Source: Antricoccus suffuscus (GTDB lineage: Bacteria > Actinomycetota > Actinomycetes > Mycobacteriales > Antricoccaceae). From it: a stretch of DNA of 64,000 bases. The position numbers and the translations under genes are program-made. Below the pieces are notes generated by a model. That model was not told the origin of the DNA. It made no database searches and worked only from the letters and a program-made list of their open reading frames with translations. The stretch's first letter is position 1; each line of letters opens with the position of its first letter. The stretch is from NCBI RefSeq assembly GCF_003003235.1, contig NZ_PVUE01000001.1:186001-250000 (forward strand), in the 5' to 3' direction. Shown here in pieces: positions 2,560 through 41,578 of this stretch.

Positions 2560-2693
2560 CACAACTCGACAATGACTCTGGGGGGAGCGGCGTCGGTCGT
2601 GTGACAGCACGAGAACCAGATGGGGGTCTGTTACTTATAGCTGTCAGGTTGTAGGGTCGGCCCTCGCCATCTCAATGAGAGGCGAGGGCCGAC
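2560..2693 (+). ncRNA. Candidate small RNA with G-rich loops, copy A
   Basis: This intergenic element resembles the one at 8708-8853. GACTCTGGGGGGAGCGGC (2574-2591) matches 16 of 18 bases of the second copy and can fold with a G-run in the loop. CAGATGGGGGTCTG (2617-2630) forms a second hairpin with a G-rich loop. A 13-bp perfect hairpin (2656-2693) would end the transcript, followed by TTGT. The A/T-rich patch upstream could hold the promoter, but I cannot fix the 5' end. No open reading frame explains the conservation. The orientation is chosen because the terminal hairpin lies to the right. Confidence 0.45.
2656..2693. terminator. Strong intergenic terminator hairpin
   Basis: GTCGGCCCTCGCC (2656-2668) pairs perfectly with GGCGAGGGCCGAC (2681-2693) around a 12-base loop. 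It lies 35 bases past the stop of the leftward LuxR-type gene and at the right end of the candidate RNA. It could therefore end transcripts from both sides. There is no long U-tract, which is common in high-GC actinobacteria. Confidence 0.7.
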
Positions 2694-2728
2694 TTGTGCC
2701 CAGGTGAGGGATCGACGGGCGATCGCGG

Positions 2729-3601
2729 TTAAAGCCAGCCGCGCTCGACCGCGCGAATTCCAGCCTGAAAGCGGCTCGACGCGCCCAGCCGCACCAGTAT
2801 CTGAGACACATGCCGGCGAAATGTCCGCTCACTCACCGCTAATCTCTTGGCGGCGGCCTCGTCTGTCAGGCCGAGGCTCATCGCCCGGATTACCGCGAGC
2901 TCGAGGTCGGACGGCCGTCCGCTGGGAGCGACCGGGTCGATCTCACTTAGGGCTCGACCGCTTCGGAAGATTCCGTTAGCCAGGTGCCGAAGCCCGTTTA
3001 CCAGCGCCGGTTCGCCGGTAATCAGGGCGCCTTCGCTTCGGGAGTCACGCACGATCGGCACCACTGCACGTACGCCGTCCGAGACGATGAGGCGATACGG
3101 GACGGCGTCCGCGAAATGGAATTGAGCGCCGTGGCCCTGCATGGTGTCGGTGTATTCGCGGACGCGTTGTATGTGCGAGAACTCGACCGGGTAGACGATC
3201 CGTAGCCGCACACCACGGTCGAGGAGCTCGCGATCGTTGCGCATCGCGGCGGTGAAGGCCTCCTCGGATGGGGCCTCGCCGGCGTGCAGGCTGAGTAGCT
3301 CGCGGCGGGTCCCGCGAGCGATCTCGACGAGCCGAGTTTGTAGGGTCGCGAGGTTGACGACCTTCTGAACCAGCAGTTTCCGATCGGGCTGGTCGTCGAC
3401 GAGCATTCGATCGAGCGCCACCCGACCGGCGAGGACCCGTTCCTCTTGCGGCGTGGCATCGGCGTGGTTACGACTGAGCTCGCGTACGGCGGCATGACCA
3501 TCAGAGTCTGCTGCACGGTATTGGGCACTCTCAAGTGCCCAGCGATGTAGGTCAGTGACCGGCTTTTTGCCCGCCGGACCGTCCGGTGGGTGAGCTGGCA
3601 T
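2729..3601 (-). CDS. LuxR-type HTH transcriptional regulator
   Basis: This is a predicted 290-residue DNA-binding regulator. The last 59 residues are a LuxR/GerE-type helix-turn-helix, including LGLTDEAAAKRLAVSERTF and RRHVSQILVRLG. The middle part (about 60-220) resembles the effector region of TrmB-like LuxR regulators, with a phrase such as RNDRELLDRGVRLRIVYP. No receiver domain or ATPase is present. The frame stays open to 4102, but that stretch overlaps the divergent FAD gene and looks non-coding, so I use the ATG at 3601. The terminator at 2656 follows it. Its target and ligand are unknown. It is transcribed divergently from the SigK-type lipid locus, which it could influence. Confidence 0.75.
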   Translation of the reverse strand: MPAHPPDGPAGKKPVTDLHRWALESAQYRAADSDGHAAVRELSRNHADATPQEERVLAGRVALDRMLVDDQPDRKLLVQKVVNLATLQTRLVEIARGTRRELLSLHAGEAPSEEAFTAAMRNDRELLDRGVRLRIVYPVEFSHIQRVREYTDTMQGHGAQFHFADAVPYRLIVSDGVRAVVPIVRDSRSEGALITGEPALVNGLRHLANGIFRSGRALSEIDPVAPSGRPSDLELAVIRAMSLGLTDEAAAKRLAVSERTFRRHVSQILVRLGASSRFQAGIRAVERGWL

Positions 3602-3808
3602 CGGACACCACCATTCGGCACTCGCGGAAATTGCCTCAGCCTTCCTCCACCATATCGTGGCATCGCGCAGGTTTGCGCGCCGCGCATTGTGTTTTTGGCC
3701 AGGTAGATCGCGGTGTGGGCCGCCGGCGCCTACTGGAAGCGTCGGCAGTCCCCGTTTTATTGTTCGGTGCCACTGTGCCGTGGCAATCGACAAGTCGTCG
3801 TGGTGTTC

Positions 3809-3835
3809 CAATCCGCACCGATGTTGGCTCCGAAC
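3809..3835 (+). promoter_or_regulatory. Possible SigK-type promoter of the FAD oxidoreductase operon
   Basis: The 3602-3913 gap has no convincing gene. It contains CAATCC (3809-3814) and, 15 bases on, CCGAAC (3830-3835), about 80 bases before the ATG at 3914. Mycobacterial SigK promoters carry CCATCC-like and CCGAAT-like boxes with slightly wider spacing, and this locus includes a sigK homologue. The match is suggestive only. Confidence 0.3.
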
Positions 3836-3913
3836 CTCCATTGAACGCGTGAGATCCAAACAAGTTGGGTCGCGTCGGCCCTTACACCGACGGACGCGAA
3901 GAGGAGGAATTCG

Positions 3914-5176
3914 ATGACTCGGCGGCGTATTGCGGTCATAGGTAGCGGTGTTGCGGGTCTGACCGCGGCGTACGTGCTGCAACGCGAGGCCGATGTCACG
4001 CTGTATGAGGCCGACTCTCGGCTTGGTGGACACGCGCATACCCACGAAGTGCTGGATGACTCCGGCACGTCGATCCGCGTCGATACCGGCTTTATCGTGC
4101 ACAACGAACGTACCTACCCGCAGTTGATCCGGCTATTCTCCGAGTTGGACATTGCCACCGCCGACTCGGACATGAGCATGTCCGTGCAGTGCGGCGGATG
4201 TGGATTGCAGTACGCCGGGGCGCGCGGTCTGTCGGGACTCTTCCCCTCCAGTAGAAACGTCGTAAACCCGCGTTACCTTTACCTACTCACCGAGGTCGTT
4301 CGTTTCCAGAGGGCGGCGCGTGCGTTGCTTGCAAGCGACGACGGCGCGAATCGGACGGTCGGTGAGTTCGTCCAGGCGGGCCACTTCACTGACTACTTCC
4401 GGTCGCATTTCCTCACTCCGCTGATCGCGGCGGTGTGGTCGACCCCGCCGCAGCTGACCGAGCTGTATCCGGTCCGCTACTTGTTTGAATTCCTGCAGAA
4501 CCACGGCATGTTGTCGATCAGCGGTTCGCCGCAATGGCGCACGGTCGTCGGTGGATCCGCACGGTACGTCGAAAAGGCCGTCAAATCGCTCAGCGCCGTA
4601 CTCACCTCGACCCCCGTGCGCAGCGTCGCGCGGGCGGGTGCGGGAGTGACCGTCCGTGACGACTCCGATCAGCTCGCTCAGTACGACGCGGCGGTAATTG
4701 CCAGCCACCCCGCACAAGCGTTGAGCATGCTGGCCGCGCCGACAGATGCGCAGTCGCACGCGCTCGGCGCAATCGGCTACTCGAAAAACCCGACGATCCT
4801 GCACACGGATACGGCGGTGCTACCGGCCGCGCGCAAGGCGCAGGCGTCCTGGAACTACTTCCTGCCCTCGTGTACCGCGACGGCCGATTCGGTGCACGTC
4901 AGCTATGACATGAACCGCCTTCAGAATCTGCCGACCGATACCCGTTACCTCGTCACCCTCAACGATGACGGTGCCGTACGCCCGGATGCGATTGTCGAGC
5001 GGATGCAGTACGAGCACCCGATCATCACGCCGGAGGCGGTCGCCGCGCAGGGCGAGCTCGCCGGCCTCAATGATGGGGTGCTCGCGTTCGCTGGCGCCTA
5101 TCACGGATGGGGTTTCCACGAAGACGGTTGCCGCTCAGGAGTGGATGCCGCCAGAAGTCTGGGGGTGCACTGGTGA
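3914..5176 (+). CDS. FAD-dependent amine-oxidase-type oxidoreductase (Rv0449c-like)
   Basis: This 420-residue flavoprotein has an N-terminal Rossmann FAD motif, IAVIGSGVAGLTAAY (residues 6-20). The EADSRLGGHAHT segment that follows is typical of NAD(P)-binding amine-oxidase-like proteins. A GAGGAGGAATT ribosome site precedes the ATG. The stop overlaps the GTG of the DUF1365 gene. In mycobacteria the homologue Rv0449c heads the same order of genes (FAD protein, DUF1365, UfaA1), and related trios modify membrane fatty acids after oxidative or light stress. A desaturase or oxidase step on an acyl chain is inferred; the substrate is not shown by sequence. Confidence 0.85.
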   Translation: MTRRRIAVIGSGVAGLTAAYVLQREADVTLYEADSRLGGHAHTHEVLDDSGTSIRVDTGFIVHNERTYPQLIRLFSELDIATADSDMSMSVQCGGCGLQYAGARGLSGLFPSSRNVVNPRYLYLLTEVVRFQRAARALLASDDGANRTVGEFVQAGHFTDYFRSHFLTPLIAAVWSTPPQLTELYPVRYLFEFLQNHGMLSISGSPQWRTVVGGSARYVEKAVKSLSAVLTSTPVRSVARAGAGVTVRDDSDQLAQYDAAVIASHPAQALSMLAAPTDAQSHALGAIGYSKNPTILHTDTAVLPAARKAQASWNYFLPSCTATADSVHVSYDMNRLQNLPTDTRYLVTLNDDGAVRPDAIVERMQYEHPIITPEAVAAQGELAGLNDGVLAFAGAYHGWGFHEDGCRSGVDAARSLGVHW

Positions 5177-8707: not shown

Positions 8708-8853
8708 AGCGAACACAGATCAATTGAGGACTCCGGGGGGAGCCGCATTGACGCCGTGCGAGGCTCGGTCAAAGGATAGATGGGGATCTACTCTTTCGAG
8801 CATCCGGTGGAGATGCCGCGGGGCCCCGCAACCGTTAGTGGTTGCGGGGCCCC
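8708..8853 (+). ncRNA. Candidate small RNA with G-rich loops, copy B
   Basis: This is the second copy of the element at 2560-2693, in a 377-base gene-free stretch. GACTCCGGGGGGAGCCGC (8729-8746) is followed by TAGATGGGGATCTA (8777-8790), a 5-bp hairpin with a GGGG loop. Next come a GCATC/GATGC hairpin and a perfect 14-bp terminal hairpin. TAGTAT (8696-8701) is a plausible -10 box; the -35 is weak. This gives a transcript of about 145 bases, close to the length inferred for the element at 38275. It is not a riboswitch that I recognise, and the next rightward gene is far away, so a free-standing RNA is likelier than a leader. Confidence 0.5.
8820..8853. terminator. Perfect 14-bp terminator hairpin
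   Basis: GGGGCCCCGCAACC (8820-8833), loop GTTAGT, GGTTGCGGGGCCCC (8840-8853). It lies between the rightward rskA/candidate RNA and the stop of the leftward SDR gene (8959), so it probably ends transcription from both sides. There is no U-tract after it. Confidence 0.75.
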
Positions 8854-8958
8854 AGTGCTTCTAGCGAGAGACGCCAACGGTCCATTGACGCGCGCCAATG
8901 CTGAGGCGTAGGCGTCGCGCGTGGTCTTTGAAGAGACGATGAGGTCGTCACCAGCGAG

Positions 8959-36357: not shown

Positions 36358-37986
36358 ATGAGCGCAGACACCGAACGGGCCATCGACCGCCGCCTAGGCA
36401 CTCGCGACGCAGGCAGCCGTGATCGGGAAATTCGCGCCCCAGAAACCAACACCCTGGTTCCTTTGTTCATCGGCCTGATGCTTGCGATGCTCTTGGCCGC
36501 GCTTAATCAAACCGTGCTGAGTACGGCGCTGCCCACGATCGTCGGCGAGCTCAATGGCGTCCACCAGATGACCTGGGTGATCACGGCCTACATCCTCGCC
36601 TCGACCATAGTGATGCCGATCTACGGCAAGGTCGGCGATCAGATCGGTCGGCGCGGGTTGATGTTCACCGCGATCCTGTTGTTCGTCAGCGGCTCGATCA
36701 TCGGTGGCCTCGCGCAGGACATGACATGGCTGATCATCGCGCGCACGGTTCAGGGTCTCGGCGGTGGCGGGTTGATCCTGCTGTCGCAGGCCATCATCGC
36801 CGACGTCGTACCGGCGCGCGAGCGCGGCAAGTATATGGGCATCATGGGCAGCGTTTTTGCCGTCTCGTCCGTTGCCGGGCCACTGCTCGGCGGCTGGTTC
36901 ACCGAAGTTATCGGCTGGCGATGGGCGTTTTGGATTAACCTGCCCCTCGGTGCGCTCGCCTTGGGTGCCGCCCTTATCTTCCTGAAACTGCCTCGGCAGG
37001 CCCGCGGCGCGGGACGATTTGATGTCGTCGGTATGGCGCTGATGATGGTCTCGTCCAGCTGTTTGATACTGGTGGCGACCTGGGGAGGTAACGAATACGC
37101 GTGGAGCTCTGGAGTAATCCTCGGTCTGATCGGCGCCACCGTCGCGACGGCGTACCTGTTTGTCATGGTCGAGCGGCGCGCCTCGAACCCGATCATTCCC
37201 TTGCATCTTTTTAAAGAGCGCAACTTCAATCTCACTACGACCGCCGGTCTTTTTACCGGGATAGCGATGTTCGGCGTCCTGGGCTATATGCCGACATATT
37301 TACAGATGGCGACCGGCGCCAACGCCACCAAAGCGGGTCTACTGATGGTCCCGATGATGGCCGGGTTTCTCGTCACCTCGATCGTGACGGGACAGATGGT
37401 CAGCAGGAGCGGCCGCTACCGGATGCTGCCCATCGTCGGCTCCTTCGTCTGGTCCCTTGCGCTGTGGCTGTTGTCGATAATGACCGTCCAGACGCCCGTC
37501 TGGCTGATCTGCGCATACCTGTCCTTGCTGGGTATCGGCATCGGCATGGGTATGCAGATCCTGGTCCTCATCGTCCAGAACTCCTTCCCCAACAGGGAGG
37601 TGGGCACCGCTACGGCGTCCAACAACTTCTTCCGGCAGATCGGCGCTTCACTCGGCTCTGCGGTTGTCGGCAGCCTTTTCGCTACCCGGCTGGTCGACCT
37701 TCTCGCGCAGCGCATGCCCGCGGATGCGCTCAGTGCCGGCGGGGGCAGCAACCGGCTGACCCCCGAGCTAGTCTCGAAGCTTCCCCCGGAGTTGCACGAG
37801 CCTGTCGTCTCGTCGTACAACGATGCGCTGGCGCCGATCTTCATGTACATGGTGCCGCTCGGTATCGCCGCGGCACTGCTGCTGTGGTTTGTGCACGAGA
37901 AGCCGCTCGCCACGACCATCGACCGGGAGGTCGCGATCGAACCGGCAACTGAAGGATTTGTCAGCCTACGAAACCGCGCCCGCTGA
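36358..37986 (+). CDS. DHA2-family MFS multidrug exporter (14 helices)
   Basis: This 542-residue drug:H+ antiporter of the EmrB/QacA group has a polar N-terminal tail (1-30) and fourteen helices. LAALNQTVLSTALPTIVGEL is the family opening, GKVGDQIGRRGLM is motif A, and VSSVAGPLLGGWFTEVIGWR is motif C (GP-xx-GG). WAFWINLPLGA follows as usual. Substrates are amphipathic or cationic drugs and dyes in relatives. No TetR regulator is adjacent. ATG 36358 has no strong ribosome site. The downstream spacer carries two candidate RNAs. Confidence 0.9.
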   Translation: MSADTERAIDRRLGTRDAGSRDREIRAPETNTLVPLFIGLMLAMLLAALNQTVLSTALPTIVGELNGVHQMTWVITAYILASTIVMPIYGKVGDQIGRRGLMFTAILLFVSGSIIGGLAQDMTWLIIARTVQGLGGGGLILLSQAIIADVVPARERGKYMGIMGSVFAVSSVAGPLLGGWFTEVIGWRWAFWINLPLGALALGAALIFLKLPRQARGAGRFDVVGMALMMVSSSCLILVATWGGNEYAWSSGVILGLIGATVATAYLFVMVERRASNPIIPLHLFKERNFNLTTTAGLFTGIAMFGVLGYMPTYLQMATGANATKAGLLMVPMMAGFLVTSIVTGQMVSRSGRYRMLPIVGSFVWSLALWLLSIMTVQTPVWLICAYLSLLGIGIGMGMQILVLIVQNSFPNREVGTATASNNFFRQIGASLGSAVVGSLFATRLVDLLAQRMPADALSAGGGSNRLTPELVSKLPPELHEPVVSSYNDALAPIFMYMVPLGIAAALLLWFVHEKPLATTIDREVAIEPATEGFVSLRNRAR

Positions 37987-38072
37987 CCGGCCGGATTCAT
38001 CAAGCACGGCCGTCGTTCACGAAGGCAAACGTGTGAGGCCAGGTCGCGCCCGGGTGCCCTGCGTGAGATATA

Positions 38073-38169
38073 GGAAGCCCCCGCGGTTAAACGGGGGGAT
38101 TGCGGGGGCTTCTACGACGAGCTCCCGGGGGGAGGGCGTCGCATCATCTCGGGAGCGACCCGAGATGCC
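38073..38169 (-). ncRNA. Candidate 6C RNA
   Basis: On the minus strand TATAGT (38179-38174) is a good -10 box. The RNA would begin near 38169 with the hairpin CATCTCGGG/CCCGAGATG (38167-38145). Next is a hairpin closed by CGACG/CGTCG with CTCCCCCCGGGAG inside (38141-38115). Last is an 11-bp terminator, GAAGCCCCCGC/GCGGGGGCTTC, whose loop contains AATCCCCCC. Two hairpins each showing six C in a row, and a length near 95 bases, are the defining points of the actinobacterial 6C RNA (B11 in M. tuberculosis), which pairs with G-rich ribosome sites. A covariance-model match has not been run. Confidence 0.6.
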
Positions 38170-38239
38170 GCCGACTATAACCTGTAATTGGGGTCGGCCG
38201 GTGCACCGGCGTCGTGACACGCGTGGCGTGGGCGGGCTG

Positions 38240-38268
38240 TTGGCGCTGGGGGTTTGGTGGGTTACACT
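38240..38268 (+). promoter_or_regulatory. Housekeeping-type promoter of the rightward candidate RNA
   Basis: TTGGCG (38240-38245) and TACACT (38263-38268) are separated by exactly 17 bases, a good sigma-70-type pair. It would start a transcript near 38275 that ends at the terminator 38376-38423. No coding frame begins in that stretch. Confidence 0.6.
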
Positions 38269-38274
38269 TTGCGT

Positions 38275-38423
38275 GCATATTTCTCGGGGGAGGAAGCGCG
38301 CACCGGTTTCGCCTAGCGAGCGAACGCCTCGGAGCGGTACTAGTCTTTGGGGGACACCTAACCGGCAGACGCGCGAAGCCCCGCCACCGACAAGGTGATC
38401 TTGTCGTCGCTGGCGGGGCTTTT
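38275..38423 (+). ncRNA. Candidate small RNA with G-rich loops, copy C (divergent)
   Basis: The predicted RNA of about 149 bases lies between a clean promoter and a U-tailed terminator (38376-38423). It holds CTCGGGGGAGG (38283-38293) and, later, CTTTGGGGGACA (38345-38356), two G5 runs in the same order and rough spacing as in the elements at 2560 and 8708. Primary sequence outside the G-runs is less alike. It is divergent from the 6C-type RNA 100 bases away, whose loops are C-runs. No protein frame is apparent. Confidence 0.5.
38376..38423 (+). terminator. Rho-independent terminator
   Basis: AAGCCCCGCCA (38376-38386) pairs with TGGCGGGGCTT (38411-38421). Inside, CGACAAG (38388-38394) pairs with CTTGTCG (38400-38406). 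TTTT follows on the plus strand. It ends the rightward candidate RNA and, from the other side, could stop the leftward GDT1 gene. Confidence 0.8.
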
Positions 38424-38488: not shown

Positions 38489-39079
38489 TTACGCACTGAG
38501 CGTGCGAATCGCTTCGACGAGCAGCCAGACGCCGAAGATGAAAAAGAGTGCCGCGGCGCCGTACCGAATGGCCTTCTCCGGAAGCGCCTTGCCGAGGGCC
38601 ATGCCGATGCCGATGGCCAGTACGTCGGCCGCGACCATGCCGAGCGTGGACCCGATCCAGACGCCGAGCCAGCCGTGGTCGGTCGCGAGAGTGATGGTGG
38701 CGAGCATGGTCTTGTCGCCGAGCTCGGCGAGGAAGAACGCCGTACCCACGGCAATAATCGCGGACTTCTTGGTCCGATTGACCTTGTCTTTCTCCTCATC
38801 GGTGAGATGGTCGCCGTGCAGCGTCCAGAAACCGAAGGCGATAAACGCCACCGCGGCGGCGAGGCTGATCCAGCCGGTCGGCAGGGAGGCACCGAGGCCG
38901 TAGCCGATCCCGACGGACACAAGGTGCACGAGGGCGGTCGCCGCCGTGATGCCGATGATGACCGGCCAGATCTTGAAGCGGGTAGCGAAGGTTAGCGCCA
39001 TCAATTGTGATTTGTCGCCGAGTTCGGCGACGAAGATGACCCCGAAGGAGAGAAGTGTGCTGGCGAGGATCGCGTCCAC
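38489..39079 (-). CDS. GDT1/TMEM165-family manganese exporter (UPF0016)
   Basis: This 196-residue membrane protein has six helices in two repeats, each with the family ExGDK(S/T) motif: FVAELGDKSQLMALTFATRF and FFLAELGDKTMLATITLATD. These acidic motifs bind the transported cation. Bacterial members (MntX-type) export Mn2+. I use GTG 39079 with GAAAGG upstream; the in-frame stretch back to 39265 is the RNA leader, not protein. A yybP-ykoY-type Mn2+ riboswitch fills that leader, which fits induction by manganese. Confidence 0.9.
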   Translation of the reverse strand: MDAILASTLLSFGVIFVAELGDKSQLMALTFATRFKIWPVIIGITAATALVHLVSVGIGYGLGASLPTGWISLAAAVAFIAFGFWTLHGDHLTDEEKDKVNRTKKSAIIAVGTAFFLAELGDKTMLATITLATDHGWLGVWIGSTLGMVAADVLAIGIGMALGKALPEKAIRYGAAALFFIFGVWLLVEAIRTLSA

Positions 39080-39142
39080 GTCGGCCTTTCGTTCGGGCCG
39101 GGTGAGGTCGGGGGCGACTTCGACCCGGCAGATAGACGTCTG

Positions 39143-39258
39143 CATAGGTCGAAGGTCTCGCCCGCCCCACCTAAGTGAGGCCGCCCGGCCGGACACAACG
39201 GAATCCCGAAGCGTCAGTATGTCGACCAAGACGTTGGGGGCTACTCCCCTTCGCGTAC
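39143..39258 (-). promoter_or_regulatory. yybP-ykoY manganese riboswitch
   Basis: The leader of the GDT1 gene on the minus strand begins AAGGGGAGTAGC (39251-39240) and ends GGGCGAGACCTTCGACCTAT (39163-39144). These are the conserved 5' and 3' blocks that make the Mn2+ site of yybP-ykoY riboswitches, with a variable arm between. TATGCT (39270-39265) is a plausible -10, placing the start near 39258. The class senses Mn2+ and turns on exporters such as this UPF0016 gene. Confidence 0.8.
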
Positions 39259-39262
39259 TGGG

Positions 39263-39415
39263 CAAGCATACCGACCGGTGTGCCGCGCCGCCTGCCGCGG
39301 GGTCGGTCTCGGGTCCGCCCCGGTCGGCCAGCCCCGCGCGTCCGGACGCGGACTCCCGCGTGACTGTGCGAGGCCGGATGCGATGGGGACCAGGCCAGAC
39401 GGATGGCCAATCCGG
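39263..39415. other. Spacer between GDT1 leader and copper ATPase
   Basis: No gene is visible. It holds the -10-like TATGCT of the riboswitch transcript, several G/C-rich inverted repeats and a perfect 14-base palindrome CGCGTCCGGACGCG (39337-39350). The repeats may end the leftward copper ATPase transcript, whose stop codon lies at 39416. I cannot assign a regulator. Confidence 0.4.
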
Positions 39416-41578
39416 TTAAAGGCGCTGGTTGCGCAGGCGGAGCGCGTTGCCGATCACGCTGACCGACGACAGGGCCATCGCCGCCGCCGAGATCATGGGA
39501 GACAGCAGGAGCCCGAACGCCGGATACAGCACGCCGGCGGCAAGCGGAATCCCGAGCACGTTGTAGACGAAAGCGAAGACGAGATTCTGTCTGATGTTGG
39601 ACATCGTCGCCTCGGACAACTTGCGGGCGCGCACGATACCGGTCAGATCGCCCTTGAGCAGGGTGATCCCGGCGCTCTCGATCGCGACATCGGTGCCGGT
39701 ACCCATTGCGATTCCGACGTCCGCCGAGGCCAGCGCGGGAGCGTCGTTGACGCCGTCGCCGGCCATTGCGACGACCCGACCCTCGGCCTGCATCCGCTCG
39801 ACGACAGCACTCTTGCGATCTGGCAACACTTCGGCTTCAACATCATCGATCCCGAGCCGGCGAGCGACAGCTTCGGCGGTGGTCCGGTTGTCGCCGGTGA
39901 GCATGATGACCCGGATGCCCTCCTCGTGCAGCGCGCTCAGCGCTTCCGCGGTGCTGGTTTTGACCGGGTCTGCGATCGCGAACACGGCGACCGCCTTTCC
40001 TGCTGCACCGGCGAAGATGACGGTAGCGCCGTCCCGGCGCAACTCGTCGGCCCGCGCGTCCAGCGCGGACGTGTCGATGCCTTCGTCGGCGAGGTACGCC
40101 GCATTGCCCAGGATGACGACCGTGCCGTCGACCGATCCTCGGGCGCCTTTGCCGGTTGGTGAGTCGAAGTCGCTCGCCTCCGGGATCTCCACTCCGTCGT
40201 CGTTCGCCCGGTTCACGATCGCCGACGCGAGCGGATGCTCGGAATGACGTTCGACCGCGGCGGCGAGCTTCAGCGCCTCGGACTCGTCGTACCCGTCGAC
40301 GGTGACGATCTGGGTGACGGACGGTTGCCCCTCGGTGAGGGTGCCAGTCTTGTCGACGACGATCGTGTCGACCTTTTCCATACGCTCCAGGGCCTCGGCG
40401 TTTTTGATGAGTACGCCGAGGGATGCGCCACGTCCCACCCCGACCATGATCGACATCGGCGTCGCCAGGCCGAGCGCACACGGGCAAGCGATGATTAGCA
40501 CGGATACCGCGACAACAAGCGCATATGTAAAGGCCGGAGACGGGCCGAAGATCGACCAGACGATAAACGCGACTATGGCGATCCCAATGACGGTCGGCAC
40601 AAACCAGCTGGCTACCTTGTCGGCCAGGCCCTGAATTGGTGCCCGCGAACGTTGTGCCTCGGCGACCATCGCGACGATCCGCGCGAGCATGGTGTCGTGA
40701 CCGACGTTCTCGGCCCGGATGATAAGAGCACCCGTCTGGTTGACTGTTCCACCGATGACCGTGTCCCCGGTCGACTTGGTGACGGGCATCGACTCTCCGG
40801 TGACGAGGGATTCGTCGAGGGACGAGCGGCCACTTTCGACTGACCCATCCACCGGCACCTTCTCGCCGGGGCGGACACGGAGGCGGTCGCCGGTTTGTAC
40901 GTCGTCGAGCGGGATTTCGTGATCGCCGTCGTCGTCGATGCGCAGAGCGGTTTTCGGCGCGAGGTCGAGCAGTGCCTTGATCGCGCCGGAAGTCTGGTCG
41001 CGGGCGCGCAACTCGAGCACCTGGCCGAGCGAGACAAGCACCGTGATCACGGCGGCTGCCTCGAAGTAGACCGCGACGGTGCCTTCCCTCGATCGGAACG
41101 AGTCGGGGAAACCCCCAGGCGCGACCGTAGCGACGATGCTGTAAAGCCACGCAACCCCTGTGCCGAGCGCGATCAGCGTGAACATGTTGAGTTTGAGGGT
41201 TCGTAGTGAGATCCAGCCGCGCACGAAGAATGGCCAGCCTGCCCACAGCACGACCGGCGTCGCGAGCACGAGCTGAATCCAGCTGGACACGGTCGGCGAG
41301 ATGAGCCCGGCGAAGAGGTGTTCTCCCATCGCCAGCACAAACACCGGGACAGTGAGCGCCAGGCCGATCCAGAACCGCCGCGTCATGTCTGCCAGCTCCG
41401 GGTTGGGGCCGCTGTCAGCGGTGACAACGACCGGCTCTAGCGCCATTCCGCAAATGGGGCAGGCGCCTGGCCCGGAACGGCGTACCTCGGGGTGCATGGG
41501 GCAGGTGTATTCGCCGGCAACGCCTTCCGCCGACAAAGTGACTGTCGTTGTATGGCTGCCGTGCTGGTGCTCAGTCAT
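39416..41578 (-). CDS. Copper-exporting P1B-type ATPase
   Basis: This 720-residue heavy-metal ATPase has an N-terminal His-rich start and a metal-binding module [20 protein letters not shown] instead of a CxxC ferredoxin-like domain. The transport site CPC appears in [15 protein letters not shown], the phosphorylated Asp in [11 protein letters not shown], the SEHPLASAI nucleotide motif and [11 protein letters not shown]. Eight helices are expected. CPC and the HMBD module point to Cu+/Ag+ export (CopA/CopB type). A CsoR-type operator stands 45 bases upstream of the ATG. No csoR or copZ gene lies nearby. Confidence 0.93.

Follow-up and report, generated by a model that had tools for sequence, protein, structure and literature searches.

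A duplicated pair of C-loop and G-loop RNAs in Antricoccus suffuscus, possibly a 6C-like regulator and its divergent antagonist

Can a small RNA with C-rich loops of the 6C type be encoded back to back with an RNA whose G-rich loops could neutralize it? This question is raised by a spacer in a 64,000-nucleotide stretch of the genome of Antricoccus suffuscus (the whole stretch is called the window here). The spacer lies between two stop codons, that of a gene for an MFS transporter (36358-37986, + strand) and that of a gene for a GDT1-family cation exporter (ending at 38489, - strand), and was flagged in a first-pass annotation. The density of C6 and G5 runs in the flagged spacer is uncommon by chance in the window: only 0.04% of the 97-nt window segments contain two C6 runs and 0.7% of the 149-nt window segments contain two G5 runs. 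A DNA search of 40 relatives identified no homologue of the spacer outside its own genome, and no match above gathering score came from Rfam scans of the whole window, of the spacer, of positions 39000-39420 upstream of the GDT1 gene, of a locus on contig 18 and of a G-loop RNA at position 8714. As described below, the flagged spacer appears to be the most diverged copy of a C-loop/G-loop module.

The leftward RNA with two CCCCCC hairpins that had been proposed for this spacer was recovered by direct reading of the sequence and by folding. This C-loop RNA (38062-38172, - strand) is expected to be transcribed from about 38168 to 38070, behind a TANNNT-type -10 element (TATAGT, 38174-38179, - strand); at the equivalent place three C-loop paralogues have TAGNCT. 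Its 5' hairpin, CAUCUCGGG-UCGCU-CCCGAGAUG (38145-38167, - strand), contains a GUCGCU core that is common to the paralogues, which have two such hairpins. It is followed by a first C hairpin (38113-38143, - strand; CCCCCC at 38132-38127) and by a terminal C hairpin (38074-38112, - strand; C6 at 38098-38093) with the loop AAUCCCCCCG, which is invariant in alignment of all four C-loop copies of the genome. A 116-nt stretch containing the RNA folds with -60.5 kcal/mol (z -6.2), and none of 200 shuffled sequences folded equally well. In the predicted fold all six Cs of the terminal hairpin are unpaired and three of six in the first, so that the proposed display of C6 in both hairpins holds in full for the second hairpin and in part for the first.

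Further copies of the C-loop RNA were found in the same genome using a model (R1) made from 16 canonical 6C RNAs together with the flagged and contig-18 copies. The four copies are located in the window (54.5 bits), on contig 18 (50.5 bits), on contig 30 (35.9 bits) and on contig 1 at 153.6 kb (30.0 bits); the scores of the window and contig-18 copies are flattered because these were used in training, and the contig-30 and contig-1 copies were outside it. Copy numbers given here derive from model searches with a filtered first pass on an incomplete assembly of 43 contigs. The four copies have in common one or two 5' hairpins with the GUCGCU core, a GCGRC..GUCG stem and the AAUCCCCCCG terminal loop. 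Weaker model matches on contigs 9 and 2 of this genome were rejected, as both characteristic loops are missing. By sequence, the flagged C-loop RNA clearly belongs to this family: it scores 84.7 bits with a model of the family itself (R2, with the window sequence included in training), and a model-independent blastn comparison with the contig-30 copy gave an E-value of 4.7e-8 in the four-sequence set.

The relation of this family to 6C was analyzed with the Rfam 6C model (RF01066), which aligns to the flagged C-loop RNA end to end. The Rfam scan that had been suggested as a check returned 28.9 bits, below the gathering score of 47, and the contig-18 copy (24.7 bits) is also below 47. The first-pass annotation had named such a sub-threshold result as one that would count against its proposal. 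Two adjacent hairpins with C-rich loops, as used to define 6C, are present in the flagged copy. Since its C loops are laid out like those of 6C and its score lies below the Rfam cut-off, we refer to the C-loop RNA as a diverged 6C-like RNA which, on its sequence, is outside RF01066 by the Rfam criterion; the 6C-type design that had been assigned to the leftward RNA is thus retained and the formal membership is not. A 6C above cut-off was present in 152 of 250 sampled genomes of the order, and at most of the order's 6C loci examined it adjoins two genes, one ssd-like and one for a HAD hydrolase. The genome of A. suffuscus has no Rfam 6C match above cut-off and no 6C was found at its ssd/HAD locus (contig 3). 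Canonical 6C, though common in the order, is seemingly absent or unrecognisable in several of its families (the own family, G001-G004, as well as f2 and f16). Matches to the 6C model in genomes G002, G004 and G005, on contig 28 of A. suffuscus and in family f2 were discarded as terminator-like hairpins or weak chance matches. A loose pattern scan of named genomes returned mostly unrelated sequence; five of its matches (L147, L148, L158, L170 and L173) are 6C-like by R1, with 53-69 bits. Four of them come from Actinomycetes MAGs and L173 from Streptomonospora alba, and a UAUCCCCCC loop is present in all three of these RNAs that were aligned (L173, L170 and L147).

The three C-loop loci outside the window (contig 18, contig 30 and contig 1 at 153.6 kb) have 400-560 bp of non-coding similarity in common, and at each of them a divergent G-loop RNA lies 125-136 bp from the C-loop RNA. 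Identity among these paired loci is 86% in the C RNA, 79% in the G RNA and 70% in the promoter block adjoining the G RNA, whereas it is 44% in the C-proximal spacer and 35-42% in the flanks. As both RNAs are conserved and the spacer and flanks are not, selection appears to have kept the RNAs and to have let the remainder drift. A divergent G-loop RNA next to a C-loop RNA, the layout first noted at the flagged site, thus recurs at three other loci of this genome and is conserved there, so the pairing is no accident of a single spacer. No such G-loop partner accompanies any of the 16 canonical 6C loci that were examined (a single G4-loop hairpin was seen at one of the 16), so the layout is not a general feature of 6C. 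Two C-loop copies also have in common, on their downstream side, another hairpin with the end GGCGCGGGGCC and a stretch of GACTACGTCAC (L087, about 714-750, and the corresponding part of L257), which suggests that the conserved unit may extend beyond the two RNAs. About 50 bp past the G-loop terminator of the contig-30 copy (L256) is a sequence that resembles a tRNA, by eye tRNA-Leu.

The G RNAs of the paired loci consist of CUYC-GGGG-GGAG, followed by UAGAU-GGGG-RUCUA and a long terminator-like hairpin, and in the predicted folds each of the three has its two G runs in apical GGGG loops. A model of these three RNAs (R3; contig 18, contig 30 and contig 1 at 153.6 kb), from which window sequence was excluded, added three copies and brought the G-loop copies in the genome to six. 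The additional copies are located on contig 18 at 7.1 kb (170 bits) and, within the window and outside the training set, at 8714-8861 (+ strand, 152.8 bits) and, more diverged, at 2560-2699 (+ strand, 42.7 bits). All three are solo copies, beside which no C-loop RNA was found. In the six-copy alignment, which was fitted to R3 and therefore leans towards its structure, 10 pairs are changed on both sides compared to a shuffled mean of 3.4 (reached in none of 500 shuffles) and 96.5% of the cells are paired compared to 34-49% for slid structures. The compensations can be read in the sequences themselves; in the second G hairpin, for example, UAGAU/RUCUA has become CAGAU/GUCUG in the window copy at 2560-2699. 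The G RNA was also considered as a small open reading frame, which was rejected: indels of 1-2 nt between copies break the frames and the contig-1 copy contains a stop, making it unlikely that the RNA is coding. Terminator tails are T-poor in module copies other than the flagged locus.

No Rfam 15 family matched the G-loop RNA at gathering score, the best weak match reaching 17.8 of 80 bits. Searches of 39 relatives and of 399 sampled genomes of the order gave only partial, mostly terminator-like matches to the G-loop family, and viral contigs, plasmids and phages gave none. A search of related genomes for the paired arrangement, another suggested check, yielded no copy of the module in the 399 order genomes or in the sister genera; as the module was found in no second genome, its conservation is seen only between paralogues. 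A screen by geometry for two GGGG-loop hairpins followed by a terminator gave 84 matches in 3.1 Mb and, not being discriminating, was not used as evidence.

Several observations concern the surroundings of the G-loop copies. The palindrome GGTCANNTGACC is present upstream of three of them (window, about 2490-2510; L087, about 430; L257, about 2190), and an AAAGTT..TACTACC block precedes most copies; palindrome and block are likely to be a regulator or sigma-factor site. Related genes encoding LuxR/GerE-type regulators adjoin two G-loop loci (window 2729-4102, - strand, by the 2560 copy; L087:980-1846, + strand, on contig 18), suggesting that a regulator of this type may be linked to G-loop loci. 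One solo G-loop copy has a gene for a Mutator-family (IS256-type) transposase at a distance of about 0.7 kb (contig 18, about 8-9.3 kb; L320:2967-4325).

At the flagged site, the elements of the proposed rightward RNA are present in the sequence: a candidate divergent promoter (38240-38268, + strand) with TTGGCG at 38240-38245 and TACACT at 38263-38268 separated by 17 nt, G5 runs at 38286-38290 and 38349-38353, and a U-tailed terminator-like hairpin with a long GC stem (38375-38422, + strand) followed by TTTTCC. The promoter matches at four of six positions in each element and is of the actinobacterial TANNNT kind; it differs from the promoter block of the G-loop family, and a plain sigma-70/terminator scan reported neither promoter nor terminator. 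We place the candidate G-loop RNA at 38271-38423 (+ strand); it either has diverged from the family or is independent of it. Its first hairpin, A (38271-38301, + strand), is predicted to have an open GGGG tetraloop at 38286-38289 (UUUCUC-GGGG-GAGGAA). The start originally assigned to this RNA, 38275 in an interval ending at 38423, cuts the outer stem of hairpin A, so the true start may be a few bases upstream. The second hairpin, B (GUC-UUUGGGG-GAC, 38343-38355, + strand), is weak with 3 bp and absent from the minimum-energy fold, in which the second G run is mostly paired. The fold of a 155-nt stretch has a z-score of -2.2. R3 scores the RNA at 16 bits (E 0.013 in 88 kb) without superposing the G loops in the alignment. 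Plain alignment to the six family members gave a mean of 39, compared to 24.7 ± 3.9 for control segments. As high a score was seen in 7 out of 4000 foreign segments, in 1 out of 1486 from the window and in none of 500 dinucleotide shuffles; with the terminator part left out, still none of 500 shuffles reached it. These alignments weakly link the flagged RNA to the conserved G-loop family, and it is probably a diverged partner of the flagged C-loop RNA.

Whether both RNAs of the flagged pair are what they resemble was considered against two alternatives. The flagged locus could contain a real C-loop RNA only, the G-run stretch being spacer and terminator with G runs that arose by chance. We rate this somewhat below an even chance. 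The 16 bits with unplaced G loops, a hairpin B of just 3 bp, a fold z-score no better than -2.2 and a promoter unlike that of the family would all fit chance runs, but in co-linear similarity to the family the stretch outscores 3993 of 4000 control segments and all of 500 shuffles, the divergent layout is the same as in the paralogues (gap of 103 bp, compared to 125-136 bp), the GGGG tetraloop is predicted to be open and the hairpins come in a comparable order. That the G-run RNA is a true diverged partner of the C-loop RNA has, in our estimate, slightly more than an even chance. For the C-loop RNA, the C6 loops could have arisen by convergence in an RNA unrelated to 6C, as its score under the Rfam cut-off, its location away from the canonical ssd/HAD locus and its extra GUCGCU 5' hairpins, which none of the canonical 6C copies examined has, might suggest. 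We consider such convergence unlikely, since a 5' hairpin precedes two C hairpins as it does in 6C, a CCCCCCGGG/GGAG core is common to both, the canonical 6C member L085 has an identical AAUCCCCCC loop, and no other 6C was found in the genome.

A predicted loop-loop energy of -5.7 to -9.2 kcal/mol was obtained for the C RNAs with the family G RNAs, and of -5.8 kcal/mol for the flagged pair, which 1.5% of random segments reach. The GGGG loops, as accessible G-rich segments complementary to a C-rich sRNA, are predicted to be open in all seven candidate G RNAs. The loop match alone is unspecific because GGGG and CCCCCC pair with nearly any complement, and the fit of two loops to two loops is not conserved, as the C6 of the first C hairpin is lost (CUCUCCC) in the contig-30 and contig-1 (153.6 kb) copies. 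The reading that we prefer, with an even chance of being correct, is a duplicated module, present in several copies, of a 6C-like C-loop RNA regulator and a divergent G-loop antagonist. The C-loop RNA would present C6 in the loops of its hairpins and, as 6C/B11 does, bind to G-rich sites, for example the ribosome-binding sites of mRNAs; the G-loop RNA, ending in a terminator-like hairpin, would expose two GGGG loops, pair with the C loops in loop-loop contacts and thereby titrate the C-loop RNA. The presence of six G-loop copies, three of them solo, compared to four C-loop copies suggests action in trans with dose control. We infer transcription, physical pairing, sponging and mRNA targets of the module from sequence and predicted structure.

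Alternatively, both RNAs may be real and have separate jobs, the C-loop RNA acting on G-rich mRNA sites and the G-loop RNA on C-rich mRNA sites or a protein, with divergence reflecting a common promoter region and regulator. Three G-loop copies without a C-loop neighbour, and the GGTCANNTGACC and AAAGTT..TACTACC sequences that point to a common regulator upstream of several G-loop copies, are in line with this, but the complementarity of C6 and G4 loops and the pairing at every C-loop locus outside the window would then be coincidence, and we regard it as quite unlikely. Still less probable is a small non-coding, MITE-like mobile or selfish repeat with hairpins kept by mobility. It would account for several copies in one genome and none in sister genera, for the copy near the transposase gene and for the one beside a tRNA-like sequence. 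However, the copies are old (C-proximal spacer about 44%) and their RNAs nevertheless 79-86% identical with compensatory changes, the ends of similarity vary between copies, and no common terminal inverted repeats are seen in the alignments. Extending the preferred reading of regulator and antagonist, a single-copy 6C regulator may have become a multi-copy circuit of C-loop RNAs, the majority of which would each be neutralised, through loop-loop pairing, by a divergent G-loop RNA of their own, with solo G-loop RNAs as an extra sponge dose and possibly LuxR-type control from beside two loci; we put this forward tentatively, with less confidence than the module itself.

6C/B11 occurs widely among Actinobacteria and acts through its C loops on numerous mRNAs; a conserved and recurrent G-loop partner would, if true, let an actinobacterium switch off a 6C-type regulator. 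The G-loop RNAs themselves are a new RNA family, absent from Rfam and defined by covariation within one genome. A search of open-access literature returned neither a G-loop RNA in back-to-back arrangement with a 6C-type RNA nor an RNA that controls 6C/B11. The first-pass annotation regarded a G-loop partner as undescribed, which agrees with the literature searched on 6C but not with that on other small RNAs, as G-rich sponges are known from Firmicutes and a cis antagonist from Campylobacter. The C loops of B11 repress via a six-G tract in the 5' UTR of eccB4 (PMC10470900). The C-loop RNA described here is likewise a small intergenic RNA with C6-loop hairpins, but differs from 6C/B11 (RF01066) in its sub-threshold score, its locus, its GUCGCU 5' hairpins, its multiple copies, two of which lack the first C6, and its divergent G-loop neighbour. 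Some mycobacteria have extra 6C copies away from the regular locus (PMC9569102), and thus also more than one 6C-type gene off that locus; those copies are added to a regular 6C, which is absent here, and we found no mention of a G-loop neighbour for them. In Bacillus subtilis, G-rich regions of RosA sponge the C-rich RoxS and FsrA, and in Staphylococcus aureus the G-rich RsaI binds RsaE, RsaD and RsaG, for which a sponge role has been suggested (PMC8216469). RosA and RsaI resemble the G-loop RNA in having G-rich regions complementary to a C-rich sRNA and are set apart, by description, as stand-alone RNAs, whereas the G-loop RNA here is back to back with its C-rich RNA; moreover, GRR1 and GRR2 of RosA are predicted to be single-stranded, whereas the G runs here are predicted to lie in GGGG tetraloops. 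In Campylobacter jejuni, CJnc180 is a cis antagonist of CJnc190, an sRNA targeting a G-rich site (PMC8687705). That antagonist is a cis-encoded antisense RNA, whereas the two RNAs described here are divergent and non-overlapping, with hairpin starts 103-136 bp apart.
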